NCBI GenBank assembly: GCA_013824115.1
Contig: PNNG01000034.1
Coordinates: forward strand, 1-64,000
Length of the DNA: 64,000 nt
Source of the DNA: Sphingobacteriaceae bacterium
Lineage (GTDB): Bacteria; Bacteroidota; Bacteroidia; UBA7662
Direction: 5' to 3'
The notes beneath the pieces were generated by a model, which was given only the letters and a program-made list of their open reading frames with translations, had not been told where the DNA came from and made no database searches. Of this stretch, positions 44,963 to 53,772 are shown in pieces; the first letter of the stretch is position 1; each line of letters opens with the position of its first letter. The translations under genes and the position numbers were made by a program.

Positions 44963-46153
44963 ATGCGAAAAAAGTATATATTTCAGTGGAGCTTGTTGTG
45001 GTTCATGCTTGTGAAAATTACTGTGGCACAATCGCCCGAATGGGAAAATTATTGGTTCCAATTAAAACAACTTCCAGTTGATTCTGTCAAAGAACTGCGG
45101 CTCGACGGCATGAGGCTGCATGAATTTCCAGAGGTGTTGTTGGAATACAGAGAGGTGACCAAAATCAGCCTCGACAACAACTATTTAGTGGCCTTGCCAG
45201 TGGAGTTGAGTCAGTTTACCAAGCTCGAAAAACTCTCTTTGCGGTCGAACTTGCTGTCGGGAAATGAAGTCAACTTGAGGCCTTTTAAAAATCTCAAAAT
45301 CATTGATTTAGGCAGTAATCGATTCAGCAAAAGCTTGAAGATTCGTACGTCCAAACGCTTACAAAAACTGTCGCTCTATGGCATGGGTTTGCAAAAAGTG
45401 CAATTCCAAGGCAGATTGCCAAAAGAAATCGATCTTTCTTCTTCGAGACTCAATGAATTGTCGTGGGGTTTGTTTCGCAAGCCCAGGGTGGAAGTACTTG
45501 TGTTGCATTCTAATTACCTTACTACTTTACCTCAAGGGGTGAGTAAATTGAGGCATTTGCGCAAGTTGGTTTTAGGAAATAATCATTTCGAAAGCATACC
45601 TGCAGAGATGGCACGCATGCGCAGGCTCGAAAGCTTGATGTTCTATAAAAACAAACTCACTCACTTGCCCGACTTTGTATGGACCATGCATGCACTCCAG
45701 GAAATAGATGTACACCACAACCGTATTTATGAATTGCCTCATGGCATTGGGGCATTGACCCAACTTTCCGAGTTGTACTTGGCCAATAATTGCTTGATAA
45801 GTCTGCCAGATAGTTTGGGCAAATTGTCGCAGTTGCGCTACTTGTATTTGGAGAACAACGAGCTCGAAGCCTTGCCTTCAAGCTTTTCTGAGCTTGGGTC
45901 GTTGCAAAGGCTAAGTTTGCTTGGAAACCGTTTTTTGGTTTATCCGGCCGCTTTATACCAAATGCCATGGTTACATGAGCTCGACCTTTCAGAAAACGAT
46001 ATCGAATCGTTTCCAACCGACTTTAAGCATTGGAAACAGCTTCGGTTATTGCTACTGCATGAGAATGCCTGCAAAAACGGTATGACGTGTATGCTTGAGT
46101 TAATGCGCCTCGAACAAAATCTAACCAACCAAGAAATCAGACTGGTGTATTAA
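44963..46153 (+). CDS. Secreted leucine-rich-repeat protein
   Basis: Signal-peptide-like N-terminus and repeated LxxLxLxxNxLxxLPxx units through the C-terminal two thirds. Confidence 0.9.
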   Translation: MRKKYIFQWSLLWFMLVKITVAQSPEWENYWFQLKQLPVDSVKELRLDGMRLHEFPEVLLEYREVTKISLDNNYLVALPVELSQFTKLEKLSLRSNLLSGNEVNLRPFKNLKIIDLGSNRFSKSLKIRTSKRLQKLSLYGMGLQKVQFQGRLPKEIDLSSSRLNELSWGLFRKPRVEVLVLHSNYLTTLPQGVSKLRHLRKLVLGNNHFESIPAEMARMRRLESLMFYKNKLTHLPDFVWTMHALQEIDVHHNRIYELPHGIGALTQLSELYLANNCLISLPDSLGKLSQLRYLYLENNELEALPSSFSELGSLQRLSLLGNRFLVYPAALYQMPWLHELDLSENDIESFPTDFKHWKQLRLLLLHENACKNGMTCMLELMRLEQNLTNQEIRLVY

Positions 46154-46178
46154 AAAAGGGGCCGAAGCCCCTTTTTTT
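46151..46178. terminator. Bidirectional rho-independent terminator
   Basis: aaaaaaggggc-cgaa-gccccttttttt between convergent genes. Confidence 0.88.
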
Positions 46179-47989
46179 TAACTCATTTGAATGCTGCGTT
46201 CGATGAATGCGGTGAGTGCAGGCCCCTTTAGCATGCCTTGTGAAAGCAAGGCCAAATCGAAAGCCTGACGGGCAAGCATTTCCTTTTTGTCGTCGGAAGC
46301 TTCTGCCACCCTTTGTAAGAACGGGTGGGCAGTATTCAATACCAACTGTTTCGGCTCTTTCATATTTCCTCCAAACATGCTGCCACCACCTGTAGCGGCC
46401 ATCTCGTTCATGCGACGGATGAACTCCGAACGCGTTACTACCACCGGTTGATCGTCGGGCGAAAGGGGAGAAGCGCTTACGGTAAACTCACCTTCCTTGC
46501 CCAAATCTTCAAAAAGGCTAATTACCGCTTTTTGTTGGTCTTCGGTCAATAGGGCGTGATAGCTTTCCTCCTTTTCTACCAATTTGTCGATGGTATCGGC
46601 ATCCACACGCTTGAATTGGGTTTTTTCCAATTTGCTTTCGAGGAAACTGAGGTAATGGCTATCAATTACACTGCCCAGCTGAAGCACATTGTAATTGCGC
46701 TTTTCGGCAGCAGCCACAAAACCATGCTGCGCTTCCGCATCGCTCGTGTATAAAACCACCAACTGCTCGTTTTTATCGGTTTGAAGGGCTTTGATGCTTT
46801 CGGCGTAGTCTTCCCAAGTGCTGAGTTTGCCGTTGGTGTCTTTGTACAAGCAGAAAGCCTTGGCGCGGTCGTAGAACTTTTCATCGCTCAACATGCCATA
46901 CTTCACAAAAAGATCGAGGTTTTCCCACTTTCCTTCAAAATCTTCACGGTTGTTCTTGAAAATCTCGTGCAACTTATCAGCTACTTTTTTGCTGATGTGG
47001 CTGTTGATTTTCTTCACATTGGCGTCGGTTTGTAAGAACGAACGCGATACATTGAGCGGAATGTCGGGTGAGTCGATTACACCATGCAACAATCGAAGAT
47101 AATCGGGCACGATCTCTTCCACAGCATCGGTGATGAACACCTGGCGGCTATAGAGCTGAATCTTGTTCCGGTTGGGTTCAAAATCGGCTTTGAGTTTGGG
47201 AAAGAACAATACACCAGTGAGGTTGAAAGGATAATCCACATTGAGGTGAATCCAGAAAAGCGGCTTTTCAGCCATGGGGTAGAGGTCCTCGTAGAATTTC
47301 TGGTAATCCTCATCACTGAGCTCGGTGGGCTTTTTAGTCCACAAAGGCTTTGTGTCGTTCACCTGCTCGCCTTCAAACTCGATGGCCACAGGTAAAAAGC
47401 GACAATATTTTTTGAGAATTTCTTTCAGGCGCCAGCTATTGAGGAATTCCTCTGAATCCTCGGCAACATGCAAAATGATGTCGGTACCACGCTCTGTTCG
47501 GCTGCCTTCACTGATTTCGAATGAAGTACTTCCGTCGCAGGTCCAGCAAGCAGCCTGAGCACCTTCTTGGCACGACAGTGATTGTATTTCTACGGTTTTC
47601 GATACCATGAAAGCAGAGTAGAAACCCAAACCAAAGGCCCCAATCATATTGTTGAGGTCGGTTTTGTCTTTGTACTTTTCTACAAATTCGGTTGCGCCCG
47701 AAAAAGCCACCTGATTGATATACTTTTCCATTTCATCGGCCGTCAGACCAATGCCCGAATCGCTGATGGTGATGGTCTTGGCATCCTTATCGAAACTCAC
47801 TTGCACTTTCAATTCGCCCACTTCACCTTTGAATTCACCCATGGAACTCAATGCGGCTATTTTTTGGCTGGCATCTACCGCGTTGCTTACCAACTCACGT
47901 AGAAAGATTTCGTGGTTGGAGTAAAGCGACTTTTTGATAATGGGAAAGATGTTTTCGGTATTCACCGAAATACTACCGGTTCTGTTCAT
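46178..47989 (-). CDS. htpG: Molecular chaperone HtpG (Hsp90)
   Basis: SLYSNHEIFLRELVSNAVDASQKI, DSGIGLTADEMEKYINQVAFSGATEF. Start ATG 47989 (MNRTGSISVNTENIF). Confidence 0.96.
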   Translation of the reverse strand: MNRTGSISVNTENIFPIIKKSLYSNHEIFLRELVSNAVDASQKIAALSSMGEFKGEVGELKVQVSFDKDAKTITISDSGIGLTADEMEKYINQVAFSGATEFVEKYKDKTDLNNMIGAFGLGFYSAFMVSKTVEIQSLSCQEGAQAACWTCDGSTSFEISEGSRTERGTDIILHVAEDSEEFLNSWRLKEILKKYCRFLPVAIEFEGEQVNDTKPLWTKKPTELSDEDYQKFYEDLYPMAEKPLFWIHLNVDYPFNLTGVLFFPKLKADFEPNRNKIQLYSRQVFITDAVEEIVPDYLRLLHGVIDSPDIPLNVSRSFLQTDANVKKINSHISKKVADKLHEIFKNNREDFEGKWENLDLFVKYGMLSDEKFYDRAKAFCLYKDTNGKLSTWEDYAESIKALQTDKNEQLVVLYTSDAEAQHGFVAAAEKRNYNVLQLGSVIDSHYLSFLESKLEKTQFKRVDADTIDKLVEKEESYHALLTEDQQKAVISLFEDLGKEGEFTVSASPLSPDDQPVVVTRSEFIRRMNEMAATGGGSMFGGNMKEPKQLVLNTAHPFLQRVAEASDDKKEMLARQAFDLALLSQGMLKGPALTAFIERSIQMS

Positions 47990-48107
47990 GTGATTCGTTT
48001 CTTTTAGGCTGTTCAAAGGCGGTGCCAGCCGCGTGAAGGCTGTCAATTTGACACAATCTAGAACGCTATAGCTGGTGTGCGACCGAGCATGTGCCAAAGT
48101 TGGCAGC

Positions 48108-49205
48108 TTATGCTCCGATGGTAAGTTTGTTAGGGAAGCTTACCCTAAACACACTGCCTTCACCCAAAACAGAGGTGACTTCGATGGTGCCACCAATCCT
48201 GTTTACCGCATCTTTGGTAATGTAAAGCCCTACTCCCGAGCCTGGATTATTGTTGGTAGCGCGGTGAAACATTTTGAAAATACCCTCTAATTCGTCGGTG
48301 GCGATGCCTATACCACCATCGGCAACTTCAAATGCGGCCTGCTGCTCGGAAATTTCTGCCCGTATTTCGACCCATTTCGCTCCTTCCTGCTTCTGATACC
48401 GATAAGCATTGCTAATGAGATTGGTGAGTATTATTTGTAGTTTGGTTCTATCGGCCACCAAAGGAGCGGTGCATTGAAGCCTTTTTCTCAGCTCTATGTT
48501 TTGAAGCTTTAATTTCGGATCAAGATCTCGCAATATATCTTCCACCAATAATTCCAAATCGATTTCGGTATGCTTTACCTCAATACGGTTATTGCGGTAG
48601 TATCCAATGATGTTTTTGATGAATTCGTCCATGCGTTGAACGCTCTCTTCAATCATATCGAAATACTTTTCGGTATTGCTCAGATCCTTTTCCATGCGCG
48701 ATAAACGAACAATTCCCAAGATGCTCATCAATGGAGAGCGCATATCATGGGAAGCACTGTACACGAATTTATCTAGCTCCTGGTAGGCTTTTTCAAGCTC
48801 AATATTTTTTTCTATGAGCTGAACACGCGTATGATATACCTCAAAAGCACTGTTAATGGCTTCCCTAATTTCTTCTTCTTGCCAGGGCTTTTGCAAATAC
48901 CTGAAGATATTTCCCATATTCACCGCACTAATGACCGCTTGTATATCGGTATAGCCAGTGAGCAAAATACGCATGGTATGCGGGTTCGTTTTTTTAATCG
49001 ATTCTAAAAACTCTATGCCGGTTTCTTTGGGCATTCGTTGGTCGGCAACTACCACCGGTATTTCATGCTCGGCCAAAAAAGCACGTCCTTCTTCTGCCGA
49101 CTCGGCAATGAAAATTTGGTAATCGTTTCTAAATGAGGCCCTGAAAGCATATAAATTATGCCTTTCATCGTCTACATAAAGCACAGCTATTTTTTGATTA
49201 ATCAC
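48108..49205 (-). CDS. Receiver domain-histidine kinase fusion (response regulator/hybrid kinase)
   Basis: N-terminal receiver LYVDDERHNLYAF...VVADQRMPKETGIEFLE...LLTGYTDIQAV; H box SASHDMRSPLMS; GSGVGLYITKDAV. Confidence 0.92.
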   Translation of the reverse strand: MINQKIAVLYVDDERHNLYAFRASFRNDYQIFIAESAEEGRAFLAEHEIPVVVADQRMPKETGIEFLESIKKTNPHTMRILLTGYTDIQAVISAVNMGNIFRYLQKPWQEEEIREAINSAFEVYHTRVQLIEKNIELEKAYQELDKFVYSASHDMRSPLMSILGIVRLSRMEKDLSNTEKYFDMIEESVQRMDEFIKNIIGYYRNNRIEVKHTEIDLELLVEDILRDLDPKLKLQNIELRKRLQCTAPLVADRTKLQIILTNLISNAYRYQKQEGAKWVEIRAEISEQQAAFEVADGGIGIATDELEGIFKMFHRATNNNPGSGVGLYITKDAVNRIGGTIEVTSVLGEGSVFRVSFPNKLTIGA

Positions 49206-51352
49206 TTGGTGTGCTGTTTAGGTAGCAAGATATGAAAAGTAGTACCCACTTTGGGCGTACTTTCTACGTCAATTTTTCCATTGTGTGCCTCTATGATGCT
49301 GTATACAATGGATAAGCCCAGGCCGGTACCATGCCCTACTTGCTTGGTGGTGAAAAAGGGATCGAATATCTTTTCTTTGGTTTCGGAAGTCATACCTGGA
49401 CCATTATCTCTGATAGATATGCGCACATGATCTTGTTCCGACTGTGTGGTAATTTCTACTACCCCACGTTGCAATGGTGATTCGTTCTCCAGAATGGCTT
49501 GAATGGCATTGTTGGTTATATTCATAATGACCTGATTCATTTTACCAGGATAGCACTCTACAAAGGCATCGGGGTCATAATTTTTTACCAAGTCGATTTT
49601 GCCTCCCATGCTACTGTTCAATAAAATCAAGGTGCTTTCGATACCTTCATTGATATCTACCTTTTTGAGATCGCTCTCGTCGAGCCGCGAGAATATTCTC
49701 AAGCCTTTCACTATTTCTGCGGTCCGTTTCGCGCCTTCTTCCATGCCATTGAGCAGAATGTTGATTTCTTCCTTTAAAAATTCAAAATCGAGCTCTCTCT
49801 CGAGTTTTTTGATTTTAGCCAATTGCGCTTGATAATCTACCCCGGCAACATGAAGCTCGCCATAAGCATTTAATAGGGTCATTAAGTCATCCATATCGCG
49901 ACGTAACGGCACTATGTTGGATGTTACAAAATTGATAGGATTGTTGATTTCGTGCGCAATTCCAGCAGTTAACTGACCTAATGAGGCCATTTTTTCTGAA
50001 TTCACGAGCTGTGTTTGGGTGTTTTTGAGATCATCGAGGGTGTTTTCGAGCTCATAGTTGGTCTTTTGCAGTGCCTCAGTGCGTTCGGCTACTTTCGCTT
50101 CCAAAACCAGGTTTTGTTCTCTTACCAACTTCTCATTTTCGAGAGATACTTGCAGCGCCAAGGCTTGAGAAGTTTCCTTTTCTTTTTTCAATATGTTAAT
50201 TCTATCGGCAAGGGCAACGCTCAGAAGTACTGCCTCAATGGCAGAACCGATAATAAGCGCATTTTTGGTGAGAAAGTTAAATGGAAGCCAGCCCAGATTT
50301 CGAGACACGAACACAAACATGCCTATCATAAAAATGGACCAGGCAAACAAGAAGAACATGGCACTTCGTTCACCTTGAATGCTCAACCTAATAGAAAAGT
50401 AAAGGGCGTAAAAGCTCAAAGTCAAGGCCAAGGCATCCAAAAAATTATAGCTTAGCTGCCTCCAGCCAAGGAGATATATAATTAGCGCAAGTACATAAAC
50501 AATGGCAAATAATTTCAACCCTTTGTCGATAAGGGGTAGTTTCGACTTGATGGGCAAGAAGGTCCGCACAAACTGTATTGCCCCCACGCCACTGACGGCA
50601 CTGAATATTACTACCGATAATTGGTTGAGATAGGGCCAATCAAATAAGACGTATTTAAAAACATATCCTTGTAAGGCCGCTTGGGCGAGGGCAATCCCCG
50701 CTATATAGGTAATGTAGTATAAATATGATTTATCGCGAATGCTCAGAAATAGAAATAAGTTGTAAAAAAACATCACGAACATGATTCCGAAATAAATCCC
50801 CGCAATGAGGTCGGTTTGGTAGTTATTCGTAAGAATGTCTTTGCGCCTTCCTGCCAAAAGAGGGATATTCACTTGCTCCATCGACTTGACCTTTAAGAGC
50901 AAGATGCAATTTTCACCCGAGTCGAGTTCAAATGGAAAAATGAAATGCTGGTGCTGAAAAAGGCGTTGCGAGAACGGCAAAGCATCACCTGTTTTGAATG
51001 ACAACCATTCATTGTTTCTTATGAAAAAGGCTTCTACCGAATCGAGCTGAGGGTTACTTAATTCGATAGCAAGCAATTTTTCATTTGTACCATTGATGAT
51101 TTCTAATTTCAACCAATAGGTGGAAGTAGAGTACTGTAAATTGGGGACCCTTCCCTGAAATGGGGTGAACTTCCCGGCTTCTTTGAGAATAGAAGTTGCA
51201 TCCCAAACGCCATCAACATCTTCGTATATGCCTAAATAGCGACCTTCAATGATACTCGGACTTCTTTCCGATATGATATAAGGGATTTCTGCAAATGCCA
51301 ATCGATGGAGAGATGCTAAAAAAAGCACACACAATAACCATTTGTGCTTCAT
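49202..51352 (-). CDS. 7TMR-DISM family sensor histidine kinase
   Basis: Signal peptide, extracellular DISM-type domain (ISERSPSIIEGRYLGIYEDVDGVWD...TSTYWLKLEI), multi-TM region, H box GIAHEINNPINFV, GTGLGLSIVYSIIEAHNG. 4-nt overlaps on both sides. Confidence 0.92.
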   Translation of the reverse strand: MKHKWLLCVLFLASLHRLAFAEIPYIISERSPSIIEGRYLGIYEDVDGVWDATSILKEAGKFTPFQGRVPNLQYSTSTYWLKLEIINGTNEKLLAIELSNPQLDSVEAFFIRNNEWLSFKTGDALPFSQRLFQHQHFIFPFELDSGENCILLLKVKSMEQVNIPLLAGRRKDILTNNYQTDLIAGIYFGIMFVMFFYNLFLFLSIRDKSYLYYITYIAGIALAQAALQGYVFKYVLFDWPYLNQLSVVIFSAVSGVGAIQFVRTFLPIKSKLPLIDKGLKLFAIVYVLALIIYLLGWRQLSYNFLDALALTLSFYALYFSIRLSIQGERSAMFFLFAWSIFMIGMFVFVSRNLGWLPFNFLTKNALIIGSAIEAVLLSVALADRINILKKEKETSQALALQVSLENEKLVREQNLVLEAKVAERTEALQKTNYELENTLDDLKNTQTQLVNSEKMASLGQLTAGIAHEINNPINFVTSNIVPLRRDMDDLMTLLNAYGELHVAGVDYQAQLAKIKKLERELDFEFLKEEINILLNGMEEGAKRTAEIVKGLRIFSRLDESDLKKVDINEGIESTLILLNSSMGGKIDLVKNYDPDAFVECYPGKMNQVIMNITNNAIQAILENESPLQRGVVEITTQSEQDHVRISIRDNGPGMTSETKEKIFDPFFTTKQVGHGTGLGLSIVYSIIEAHNGKIDVESTPKVGTTFHILLPKQHTK

Positions 51353-52089
51353 TGCAGGGCTAGTTTAAACTCATTCACGTCAACTCCTTTGATTTCAAGG
51401 TTATAGTGGATATTTACTTCCACATTTCGTAGCGGCGACATTTCGGTGTAAACCTGGTTTAGGTTTTTTCGTATATCAAAAATACGTTGTTGCTCTTGGG
51501 GATCGGCTTGCGTAATGGTTTGCGCGTCTTCAAGCAACACAATGGTAGCCAGTAAATCGAGTTTGGGATAATAGAATGTGCCGTTGTTGCCAATGCTTTT
51601 TAGTACCCTACAGCCCACTTTCTCTGCAAATTTCACTGTATAAGGGGCGCACAAGGCGAAGATGCTCTCAATGCCTATTTGCTCGGCTATCACTACTCCC
51701 ACACGGGTAGCAAAAAAGGCACCGATGCCCAAACCGGCAACTTCACGCGAGTTCCACAGTCCGCATAACTCTGCAGTGCCATTTTGAGCGTATTGCGCAA
51801 CCACTTCGTAGATCCGCTTGTCGAACTCACCAGTGGCTTCCTCAATAGGAAGCGGTTGATTGCCACCACTGCATTGCAATCGTGCCCCGCCTAAAACGCG
51901 GTCACCATTTTCATTTTCAACAATGATCACAAAATTACCCGGATTGTATTTCCAATCGTGATTGGCAGAAGTTACTTTTTTCACGCCTGCTACTTCCAAT
52001 ACGTGGGCATGCCCTTCAATGAATCGGTCGCATGAAGCAGGGTCATCGGTTGCCCTAAAAGCACGTATTCGAATGCTATTCACCGACAT
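51349..52089 (-). CDS. GNAT-fold acyltransferase-like protein (N-acyl amino acid synthase/autoinducer-synthase-like)
   Basis: VLGGARLQCSGG, AELCGLWNSREVAGLGIGAFFATRVGVVIAEQIGIESIFALCAPYTVKFAEKVGCRV. Confidence 0.65.
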   Translation of the reverse strand: MSVNSIRIRAFRATDDPASCDRFIEGHAHVLEVAGVKKVTSANHDWKYNPGNFVIIVENENGDRVLGGARLQCSGGNQPLPIEEATGEFDKRIYEVVAQYAQNGTAELCGLWNSREVAGLGIGAFFATRVGVVIAEQIGIESIFALCAPYTVKFAEKVGCRVLKSIGNNGTFYYPKLDLLATIVLLEDAQTITQADPQEQQRIFDIRKNLNQVYTEMSPLRNVEVNIHYNLEIKGVDVNEFKLALQ

Positions 52090-53197
52090 CCTGTTGTTGA
52101 TTGCTGCGCACTATTTGATGTACATCAATGTAGTAGCGCCCCGAGGGTATAGTTTCTTGCAGCAGAATTCGCCTGGCAGTATCAGCAACATGACCACCTC
52201 CGGCATACACCGCAGAAGCCAGTTGGGGCCAGGTGGTAATGCTTTTGCCCAACTCGCTGTAAGAAAAACGGAGTCGGTCCGACACCTGAGCCACATCCAC
52301 AATGGCAGTGAGATACTGCATTTTGAGAAGGGGATTCCAGCTTTCCGGTGGGTAGTTTTGCAAGAGGTGTTCAATTTTGCCATGAAACAACGACCTATGA
52401 GGTTCTAAGTCGAAACGTTCGATATCGAGCATGCCCCTGTCGGATGTTTCCATCAGGGTGGCCAACTTTCGCGAACGTGCAGCAAAACGCATGGCTAATT
52501 TCATCTCCAAGCTATCGCATTCGTCAATCAGCAAGTCGAGCGGACTGCTACCACCCAAAAAGTCGTCTAAATTCGAGGTTGTTAATCCATCGACAAATAC
52601 TTCTACGCGAAAATAGGGGTCTAATTCAGCAATTTCACGTGCCATTAGCACCGCTTTATGAAGGCCTATATCTTGCACCGACGCACGTATACGATTTAAG
52701 TTGCTTAAATCAATGGTGTCGAAATCGGCCAACTTTAACCGACCGCAACCTCTTTCTAAAGCAATGGTATAGGCAATGGCACTTCCAACCGACAAGCCTA
52801 CTACTCCGATGCATTTGGTGGCCAACGCAGCTTGTTCTTCTGGCGTGATTTTGTACTTGTTACGGGAGGTTCTTACTTCTATGAATTCTGCTTCATCTAA
52901 TAAATGCACCATTCTTCGGCTCCAGGGGTACCAAACCCAGGCGCCGTATTCATGCAAGCCAACATCACCCAAGTGTTGTTGAATAAACACATTCAGCTGT
53001 GCTTTATCAAGAGGGGTTTCAGGTCGGCGGATTTTTATCAGTTCTGCCAATTGAAGCTGAATGGTATCGTGAATCACCAGGTCAGGGTCGCCAACGAGCA
53101 GATTAAAATGCTCAGCATCTTCGGGATCTGTGATTTTAAAAATCCTTGGCGCATAGTCGAGAGGGTCGGCGCCTGGTCTATAATCGAGGTAATCCAT
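52076..53197 (-). CDS. ThiF/E1-like adenylyltransferase (Rv1355c-like, without nitroreductase domain)
   Basis: KCIGVVGLSVGSAIAYTIALERGCGRLKLADFDTIDLSNLNRIRASVQDIGLHKAVLMAREIAELDPY; DECDSLEMKLAMR; no CxxC zinc motif. Confidence 0.85.
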   Translation of the reverse strand: MDYLDYRPGADPLDYAPRIFKITDPEDAEHFNLLVGDPDLVIHDTIQLQLAELIKIRRPETPLDKAQLNVFIQQHLGDVGLHEYGAWVWYPWSRRMVHLLDEAEFIEVRTSRNKYKITPEEQAALATKCIGVVGLSVGSAIAYTIALERGCGRLKLADFDTIDLSNLNRIRASVQDIGLHKAVLMAREIAELDPYFRVEVFVDGLTTSNLDDFLGGSSPLDLLIDECDSLEMKLAMRFAARSRKLATLMETSDRGMLDIERFDLEPHRSLFHGKIEHLLQNYPPESWNPLLKMQYLTAIVDVAQVSDRLRFSYSELGKSITTWPQLASAVYAGGGHVADTARRILLQETIPSGRYYIDVHQIVRSNQQQDVGE

Positions 53198-53262
53198 CTT
53201 TCTTGAGTGCTTTCGTAACCAAATCCGCAGCCAATATAATTAGAAAGGCGGCTCGGAAGTTA

Positions 53263-53290
53263 TTGAATACCGAGAGAAAGTTTATTTTTG
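53263..53290 (+). promoter_or_regulatory. Bacteroidota promoter (TTG-N17-TATTTTTG) for the stand-alone response regulator
   Basis: ttg at 53263, TATTTTTG at 53283-53290, ATG at 53308. Confidence 0.6.
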
Positions 53291-53307
53291 ACGGAAATTC
53301 TTGTCAC

Positions 53308-53772
53308 ATGGCTGAGGAAAAAATTCAGGTACTTTATGTTGATGACGAGGTGAACAACCTCCATTCCTTCAAAGCCGCATTTCGTCGCGATTTTATGGTA
53401 TTTACGGCAGAATCGGCAAAGGAAGGCCTGGCCATCTTGGAGCAGGAACATATTGAAGTGATTATTACCGACCAACGCATGCCAGAAATGACTGGAGTTG
53501 AGTTTTTAGAGTCGGTGATTCCCCACTATCCCGAACCCATTCGGATTTTGTTGACCGGTTACACTGACATTCAGGCCGTAATCGATGCGATCAACAAAGG
53601 CCAGGTTTATCATTATATCACCAAGCCTTGGGACGAGGAGCAGCTCAGAAACATCATCAAAAAGGCGTATGAGGTATACGCGCTGCGAGCCGAAAATAAA
53701 GAGCTGGTGAAAAGCTTGTTGCGTGCCAATGAGCAACTTGAGTTTTTATTGCGACAACGTCTATTGTCGTAG
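53308..53772 (+). CDS. Single-domain response regulator with coiled-coil tail
   Basis: MAEEKIQVLYVDDEVNNLHSFKAAFRRDF...ITDQRMPEMTGVEFLE...LLTGYTDIQAV...KPWDEEQLRNI; start trimmed from the track's 53146. Confidence 0.92.
   Translation: MAEEKIQVLYVDDEVNNLHSFKAAFRRDFMVFTAESAKEGLAILEQEHIEVIITDQRMPEMTGVEFLESVIPHYPEPIRILLTGYTDIQAVIDAINKGQVYHYITKPWDEEQLRNIIKKAYEVYALRAENKELVKSLLRANEQLEFLLRQRLLS

Follow-up and report, generated by a model that had tools for sequence, protein, structure and literature searches.

A widespread Bacteroidota gene cassette links a predicted N-acyl amino acid synthase and its tailoring enzyme to a 7TMR-DISM two-component system

A contig of a Sphingobacteriaceae bacterium (PNNG01000034.1, assembly GCA_013824115.1; source genome 85% complete) contains, within the 64,000-nucleotide stretch analysed here (the window), a five-gene cassette at 48108-53772. 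It encodes a ThiF-type enzyme, a GNAT-like protein, two histidine kinases and a stand-alone receiver. Related cassettes are carried by about a fifth of sampled Bacteroidia species, and the gene for the GNAT-like protein, a putative N-acyl amino acid synthase, is almost invariably accompanied by a 7TMR-DISM sensor kinase gene. On balance we favour the reading that the cassette makes an N-acyl-amino-acid derivative coupled to a dedicated two-component circuit, most likely as a cell-cell (or self-) signal. It is very probable that the two enzymes yield an N-acyl amino acid with a modified carboxylate, and the two sensor kinases probably respond to this product or govern its synthesis.

Organisation and conservation of the cassette

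The minus strand carries, in order of transcription, genes for a 373-aa ThiF-type cyclase (52076-53197), a 246-aa GNAT-fold synthase (51349-52089), a 716-aa 7TMR-DISM sensor histidine kinase (49202-51352) and a 365-aa receiver-histidine kinase with a GTG start (48108-49205). Open reading frame (ORF) analysis bore out the five genes of the initial annotation, including the end-to-start overlaps of these four, which amount to 14, 4 and 4 bases. The fifth gene, said to be divergent and to encode a single-domain receiver, is indeed on the plus strand (53308-53772). It starts at ATG 53308 and encodes a 154-aa single-domain response regulator (Pfam Response_reg, E 5e-21), a length that fits its homologues, mostly of 151-169 aa. 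A start at the longer TTG ORF at 53146 is unsupported by these lengths.

Survey of Bacteroidota showed the opposite of a family found mostly without kinases. When 388 Bacteroidia genomes were searched with the GNAT-like protein alone, homologues were found in 75 (69 of the 332 good genomes), spread over 42 genera and 21 families. A DISM kinase lies beside the synthase in 74 of the 75, the remaining copy being at a contig end. When this class-level sample is combined with named genomes (n = 104 loci), the DISM kinase is present in 103 loci, the stand-alone receiver in 94 and the receiver-kinase in 90; some of the missing receiver and receiver-kinase genes reflect contig ends and several are real absences. 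Synthase, tailoring enzyme and kinases are encoded on a single strand in 103 of 103 loci, and the receiver gene diverges from them in 90 of 93. Gene order is rearranged across the 21 families while the linkage persists. As genetics, the synthase-sensor linkage is strong, and a signal synthase genetically linked to a sensor kinase is a trait of quorum-sensing systems.

The ThiF protein is encoded in 70 of the 388 genomes, in 66 of them within the cassette or at its contig-cut edge. Of the four others, one has a ThiF-oxidase alone (G572), one a ThiF with a distant GNAT and no kinases (G606), and one an unlinked ThiF-oxidase with the remaining cassette elsewhere in the genome (G589). In the fourth (G663), an ORF beside the divergent receiver (L202:8171-9280) runs in frame from the first half of ThiF into the kinase part of the receiver-kinase, as if the middle of a once complete cassette had been deleted. 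A search of named genomes with the ThiF protein recovered the whole cassette in about two dozen Dyadobacter species, including the culturable Dyadobacter fermentans (L017), and in a Chitinophagaceae strain. The cassette was also found by this search in four metagenome-assembled genomes (MAGs) labelled Chryseobacterium or Flavobacteriales, and some of the named-genome cassettes are contig-cut. Three MAGs titled Chryseobacterium gleum, a doubtful label, have strongly divergent cassettes in which an additional gene, for a 382-aa protein without a Pfam family, lies upstream of ThiF (L023, L024, L028).

The predicted N-acyl amino acid synthase

Pfam and PDB sequence searches with the GNAT-like protein gave no convincing match, and weak Pfam GNAT matches were found in 9 of 61 homologues. 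An AlphaFold model built from a 61-sequence alignment (predicted local distance difference test, pLDDT, 94.1) has as its best PDB fold match the N-acyl amino acid synthase FeeM (2g0b; E 3e-8, TMt 0.70-0.76), followed by the coenzyme A (CoA)-dependent N-acyl-homoserine lactone (AHL) synthases BjaI, MesI and RpaI. The window synthase has its fold in common with these enzymes at only about 12-17% identity. The suspicion of a GNAT/autoinducer-synthase-like protein was therefore well placed, and the predicted structure confirms an N-acyl amino acid synthase/CoA-type AHL-synthase fold. One cassette (L136:7526-8973, genome G724) has two tandem synthase genes, possibly giving two acyl products.

The ThiF-type cyclase

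The product of the neighbouring gene had been described as ThiF/E1-like. The ThiF domain stands (Pfam, E 8e-19), and the ubiquitin-like chemistry that an E1 label implies does not: the best NCBIfam family is Rv1355c (NF005901, E 8e-133), matched at model positions 9-345 of 722. Characterised members of this family, TrzS, OxzB and TyzB, cyclise N-acyl amino acids; TrzS acts with the N-acyltransferase TrzA to give N-acyl tryptazolones, and related N-acyl oxazolones are the products of OxzAB and TyzACB (PMC12856293, PMC10404671). Adenylation-site residues, including D228 of the DxxDS motif, R169 and K181, are invariant in 95 of 95 ThiF homologues, and the motif is found at residues 199-205 in related actinobacterial ThiF proteins. 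D228 is probably equivalent, in a comparison made without the exact TrzS sequence, to TrzS D217, mutation of which abolishes cyclisation. Judged by its sequence, the window ThiF is the cyclase half only of TrzS/OxzB. As a member of an oxazolone cyclase family acting on a small molecule it would need no ThiS/MoaD partner, so the lack of one, already remarked upon for the window, is expected; no ThiS/MoaD-like gene is present in the conserved cassette of any surveyed locus.

ThiF is fused to a flavin oxidase in 67 loci and stands alone in 26 (class sample and named genomes), with identical catalytic residues in the two forms. A profile of 13 fused oxidase domains detected no flavin oxidase in 13 ThiF-only genomes, among them the window genome and its more complete sisters. 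An oxidase encoded elsewhere in the window genome (85% complete) was rejected after this search: the genome and its sisters hold only 20-28-bit fragments, and the single nitroreductase of the window genome is an ordinary 266-aa one. These lineages therefore seem to use the saturated ring or something derived from it. In TrzS, the R540A mutation or low O2 leads to the cyclised saturated product, so the cyclase works without a functioning oxidase (PMC12856293).

On a Streptomyces plasmid (NZ_CP109497.1; L181:5128-8042), a gene for a 622-aa ThiF of the Rv1355c/TrzS family adjoins one for a beta-ketoacyl-acyl carrier protein (ACP) synthase III, which suggests another pathway built on the same cyclase. 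The Streptomyces plasmid ThiF-GNAT pair is no counter-example to the linkage described above, as its GNAT is unrelated to the window synthase family.

Exchange of the tailoring enzyme

In eight genomes ThiF is absent genome-wide and an S-adenosylmethionine methyltransferase occupies the ThiF slot. Seven of these methyltransferases are of one 251-256-aa type, three of which were scanned and match UbiE-like methyltransferase models; the eighth belongs to the isoprenylcysteine carboxyl methyltransferase (ICMT) family. A ninth genome (G490) seems to hold both ThiF and an O-methyltransferase across two contigs. The ThiF/methyltransferase label changes seven times on the synthase tree, a count that treats G490 as methyltransferase type and may be one too high, and at least five changes are forced by well-supported branches. 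One full cassette has neither enzyme, and a ThiF-oxidase is encoded elsewhere in the same genome. We infer that ThiF and the methyltransferase, at its predicted methylation site, could both remove the negative charge of the carboxylate, so that the acyl amino acid could cross membranes. Swappable chemistry around a constant synthase-sensor core is as expected of a diversifying signal.

Sensor kinases and receivers

The assignment of the 716-aa protein as a 7TM-DISM kinase is upheld by Pfam matches to 7TMR-DISM_7TM (E 3e-47), DISMED2 (E 4e-28) and HATPase. It comprises a signal peptide, a periplasmic DISMED2 domain (about residues 37-165), a seven-transmembrane (7TM) region (181-384), a coiled coil and a histidine kinase core. 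The phospho-acceptor H467 is conserved in 59 of 59 sequences, with a HisKA match below its own cut-off. The window genome contains four other DISM_7TM matches, all scoring far lower, and the three inspected are not beside such enzymes; by these comparisons the cassette kinase is a distinct subfamily. The top fold match for a model of residues 1-400 (pLDDT 94.4) is the periplasmic sensor domain of RetS. Next, at low global similarity, come two eukaryotic 7TM proteins that have lipid ligands and a beta-sandwich domain, Wntless and TMEM87A. The sensor regions have evolved faster than the kinase core.

The receiver-kinase, like the DISM kinase, contains a HATPase domain, and each of the two receivers a Response_reg domain. 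The divergent receiver and that of the receiver-kinase were rightly taken for paralogues, being identical at 70 of 124 positions without gaps. The phospho-acceptor D55 and K106 are conserved in both receivers (59 of 59), and the receiver-kinase retains its kinase H153 in 57 of 59 sequences. Both receivers are short and have no output or DNA-binding domain; output would therefore be by protein contact or through partners encoded elsewhere.

Downstream of the receiver-kinase there is often a gene for one more CheY-like receiver, of 130-136 aa (L120, L148, L118, L081, L024); it is absent in the window and could be another relay or output element. Three loci of family f13 (L121, L127, L130) lack the receiver-kinase and have, after the DISM kinase, a gene for an AsmA-like protein of ~900 aa.

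Comparison with known systems

Signal synthase genes lie beside those for a membrane histidine kinase and a response regulator in the LqsA-LqsS-LqsR, CqsA-CqsS and RpfF-RpfC-RpfG systems. The window has the same synthase-kinase-regulator arrangement, but the synthase chemistry of those systems is unrelated and their sensor is not of the 7TMR-DISM type. RetS-type kinases share DISMED2 and 7TM regions with the window kinase, which differs in its constant association with an acyl amino acid synthase and in having no receiver on the DISM protein.

On the biosynthetic side, in TrzAS and TyzACB of Mycobacterium and OxzAB of Pseudoalteromonas rubra, as in the window, the gene for an N-acyl amino acid synthase adjoins one for a ThiF cyclase of the Rv1355c/TrzS family. 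The window ThiF is about 41-48% identical to actinobacterial ThiF proteins and lacks the oxidase, whereas many of its Bacteroidota relatives share the TrzS-type ThiF-oxidase fusion; the window synthase is only remotely similar to TrzA. The handful of Nocardia, Mycolicibacterium, Rhodococcus and Streptomyces loci examined lack the linked two-component system. Nocardia and Rhodococcus loci show cyclic di-GMP (c-di-GMP) genes instead; the neighbours of the Nocardia TrzA gene encode TrzS and what reads as a GGDEF-EAL protein. Stieleriacine and related nasY clusters of planctomycetes and proteobacteria combine an N-acyl amino acid synthase with ThiF, nitroreductase and methyltransferase genes, with no mention of two-component genes (PMC12479983). 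Within the open-access literature, to which the searches were confined, no report was seen that couples an acyl amino acid synthase or ThiF to DISM kinases.

The physiological role of N-acyl oxazolones has been called a major unresolved question, and a signalling function has been proposed for them from chemical resemblance and neighbouring c-di-GMP genes (PMC12856293). The firm linkage of oxazolone-type enzymes to a receptor-type kinase in 21 families makes that guess a testable receptor-ligand question. The cassette also suggests what class of ligand 7TMR-DISM receptors might bind, and it provides Bacteroidota with a candidate small-molecule signal; to our knowledge, few signals between cells are known from this phylum.

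Proposed pathway and alternative explanations

In the proposed pathway, the GNAT-fold protein would transfer the acyl group of acyl-CoA (or acyl-ACP) to an amino acid. ThiF would then adenylate the carboxylate with ATP, and the amide oxygen would close the ring to give a neutral, lipophilic 2-alkyl-oxazol-5-one, which would stay saturated because the window genome has no flavin oxidase. On reaching the DISMED2/7TM sensor, the product would alter phosphorylation of the receiver-kinase and the divergent receiver, both of which would act through protein contact since neither has a DNA-binding domain. The initial annotation had supposed that the ThiF and GNAT-like genes may produce or alter a small molecule or peptide and that the kinases and receivers sense or relay it. 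This agrees with the evidence as a whole: the FeeM fold and Rv1355c family bear out small-molecule enzymes, which the survey found linked to the kinase, and the kinase may sense their product. More broadly, we tentatively suggest, with slightly less than even confidence, a widespread form of Bacteroidota cell-cell signalling in which a fixed synthase-7TMR-DISM pair is combined with exchangeable carboxylate masking (an oxazolone with or without desaturation, or methylation) to give lineage-specific dialects.

Several points weigh against a sensed oxazolone-type signal. Its substrate, product and ligand are predictions from sequence and structure, and the cassette has no exporter gene. The ThiF score with NF005901 (444) is below the curated cut-off of 476, which was set for the fused protein and is missed because the oxidase half is absent. 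The synthase profile aligns with Nocardia TrzA in chain order at an hhalign probability of just 22%, a link on which we do not rely. Later fold matches of the sensor model are carbohydrate-binding proteins and modules, which argues for a sugar; taken with Wntless and TMEM87A, they leave both lipids and sugars as candidate ligands. Spearman correlation with the synthase is lower for the sensor regions (DISMED2 0.25, 7TM 0.37) than for the histidine kinase core (0.56). DISMED2 adds nothing to the synthase correlation once other parts are controlled for and shows no association with tailoring type (P 0.88), while the 7TM part has a partial r of 0.19 with the synthase and a marginal link to tailoring type (P about 0.03-0.04). 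Coevolution was thus unsupported for DISMED2 and weak for 7TM in the two tests, and is not counted in favour of a receptor-ligand match.

Perception of the product by the kinase is, we infer, the likeliest reason for the linkage, and control of production by another cue is its serious rival. The DISM kinase might sense something unrelated, such as a glycan or envelope stress, and switch on an acyl-oxazolone or acyl amino acid that serves as an antimicrobial, surfactant or membrane lipid. We lean against this, while regarding it as a realistic possibility given the resemblance of DISMED2 to RetS and carbohydrate-binding modules, the lack of synthase-DISMED2 coevolution beyond shared history, and the antimicrobial or surfactant activity reported for N-acyl amino acids and tyrosines (PMC12856293, PMC12479983). 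Direct operon control is, however, not evident from receivers without DNA-binding output, and a production switch would not by itself account for a linkage that is nearly absolute in 21 families while the tailoring enzyme is exchanged. Another idea, compatible with either a signal or a regulated metabolite, is that ThiF without an oxidase activates the acyl-amino-acid for transfer to an amine or alcohol, so that an amide or ester results and no oxazolone is released. The ThiF-only genomes without a flavin oxidase fit such a transfer, as do the opening of oxazolones by alcohols and the failure to detect the saturated cyclised species of TrzAS in vivo, but the cassette has no additional acceptor enzyme and fused and unfused ThiF share their catalytic residues, and we consider it unlikely.

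Far less probable is that ThiF acts on a protein or peptide carboxylate, in ubiquitin-like chemistry or that of ribosomally synthesised and post-translationally modified peptides, with the GNAT as a protein N-acyltransferase. The ThiF/E1 fold and weak matches of PADLOC E1-E2 models to the Rossmann part would allow it. Yet Rv1355c/TrzS is the best family by a wide margin, the GNAT fold is nearest to FeeM and AHL synthases, and ThiF is swapped for methyltransferases of small-molecule type. No E2, ubiquitin-like or JAB partner is encoded in the window cassette, the conserved core of other loci has no recurrent extra gene, and the conserved cassette contains no precursor peptide gene; family, partners and fold all told against a ubiquitin-like or defence E1 role, which was rejected. 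That unrelated transcripts are adjacent by chance is effectively refuted by the linkage kept in 103 of 104 loci, and also conflicts with the overlapping genes of the window.

Intergenic region and flanking genes

The ThiF and receiver genes are separated by a divergent intergenic region of 110 bases (53198-53307). Ahead of the receiver gene it contains TTG-N17-TATTTTTG (53263-53290), which we take to resemble the Bacteroidota promoter consensus. Of 81 intergenic regions, 7 had such a promoter-like site on the side of the receiver gene, compared with 1.4 after shuffling, and a common promoter motif across cassettes was not adopted on such weak support.

An HtpG (Hsp90)-like gene (46178-48097), outside the conserved cassette, follows the receiver-kinase on the same strand after a gap of ~10 bases by its longest ORF. 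Between it and a PurH-like gene lies a plus-strand gene for a leucine-rich-repeat protein (44963-46153).

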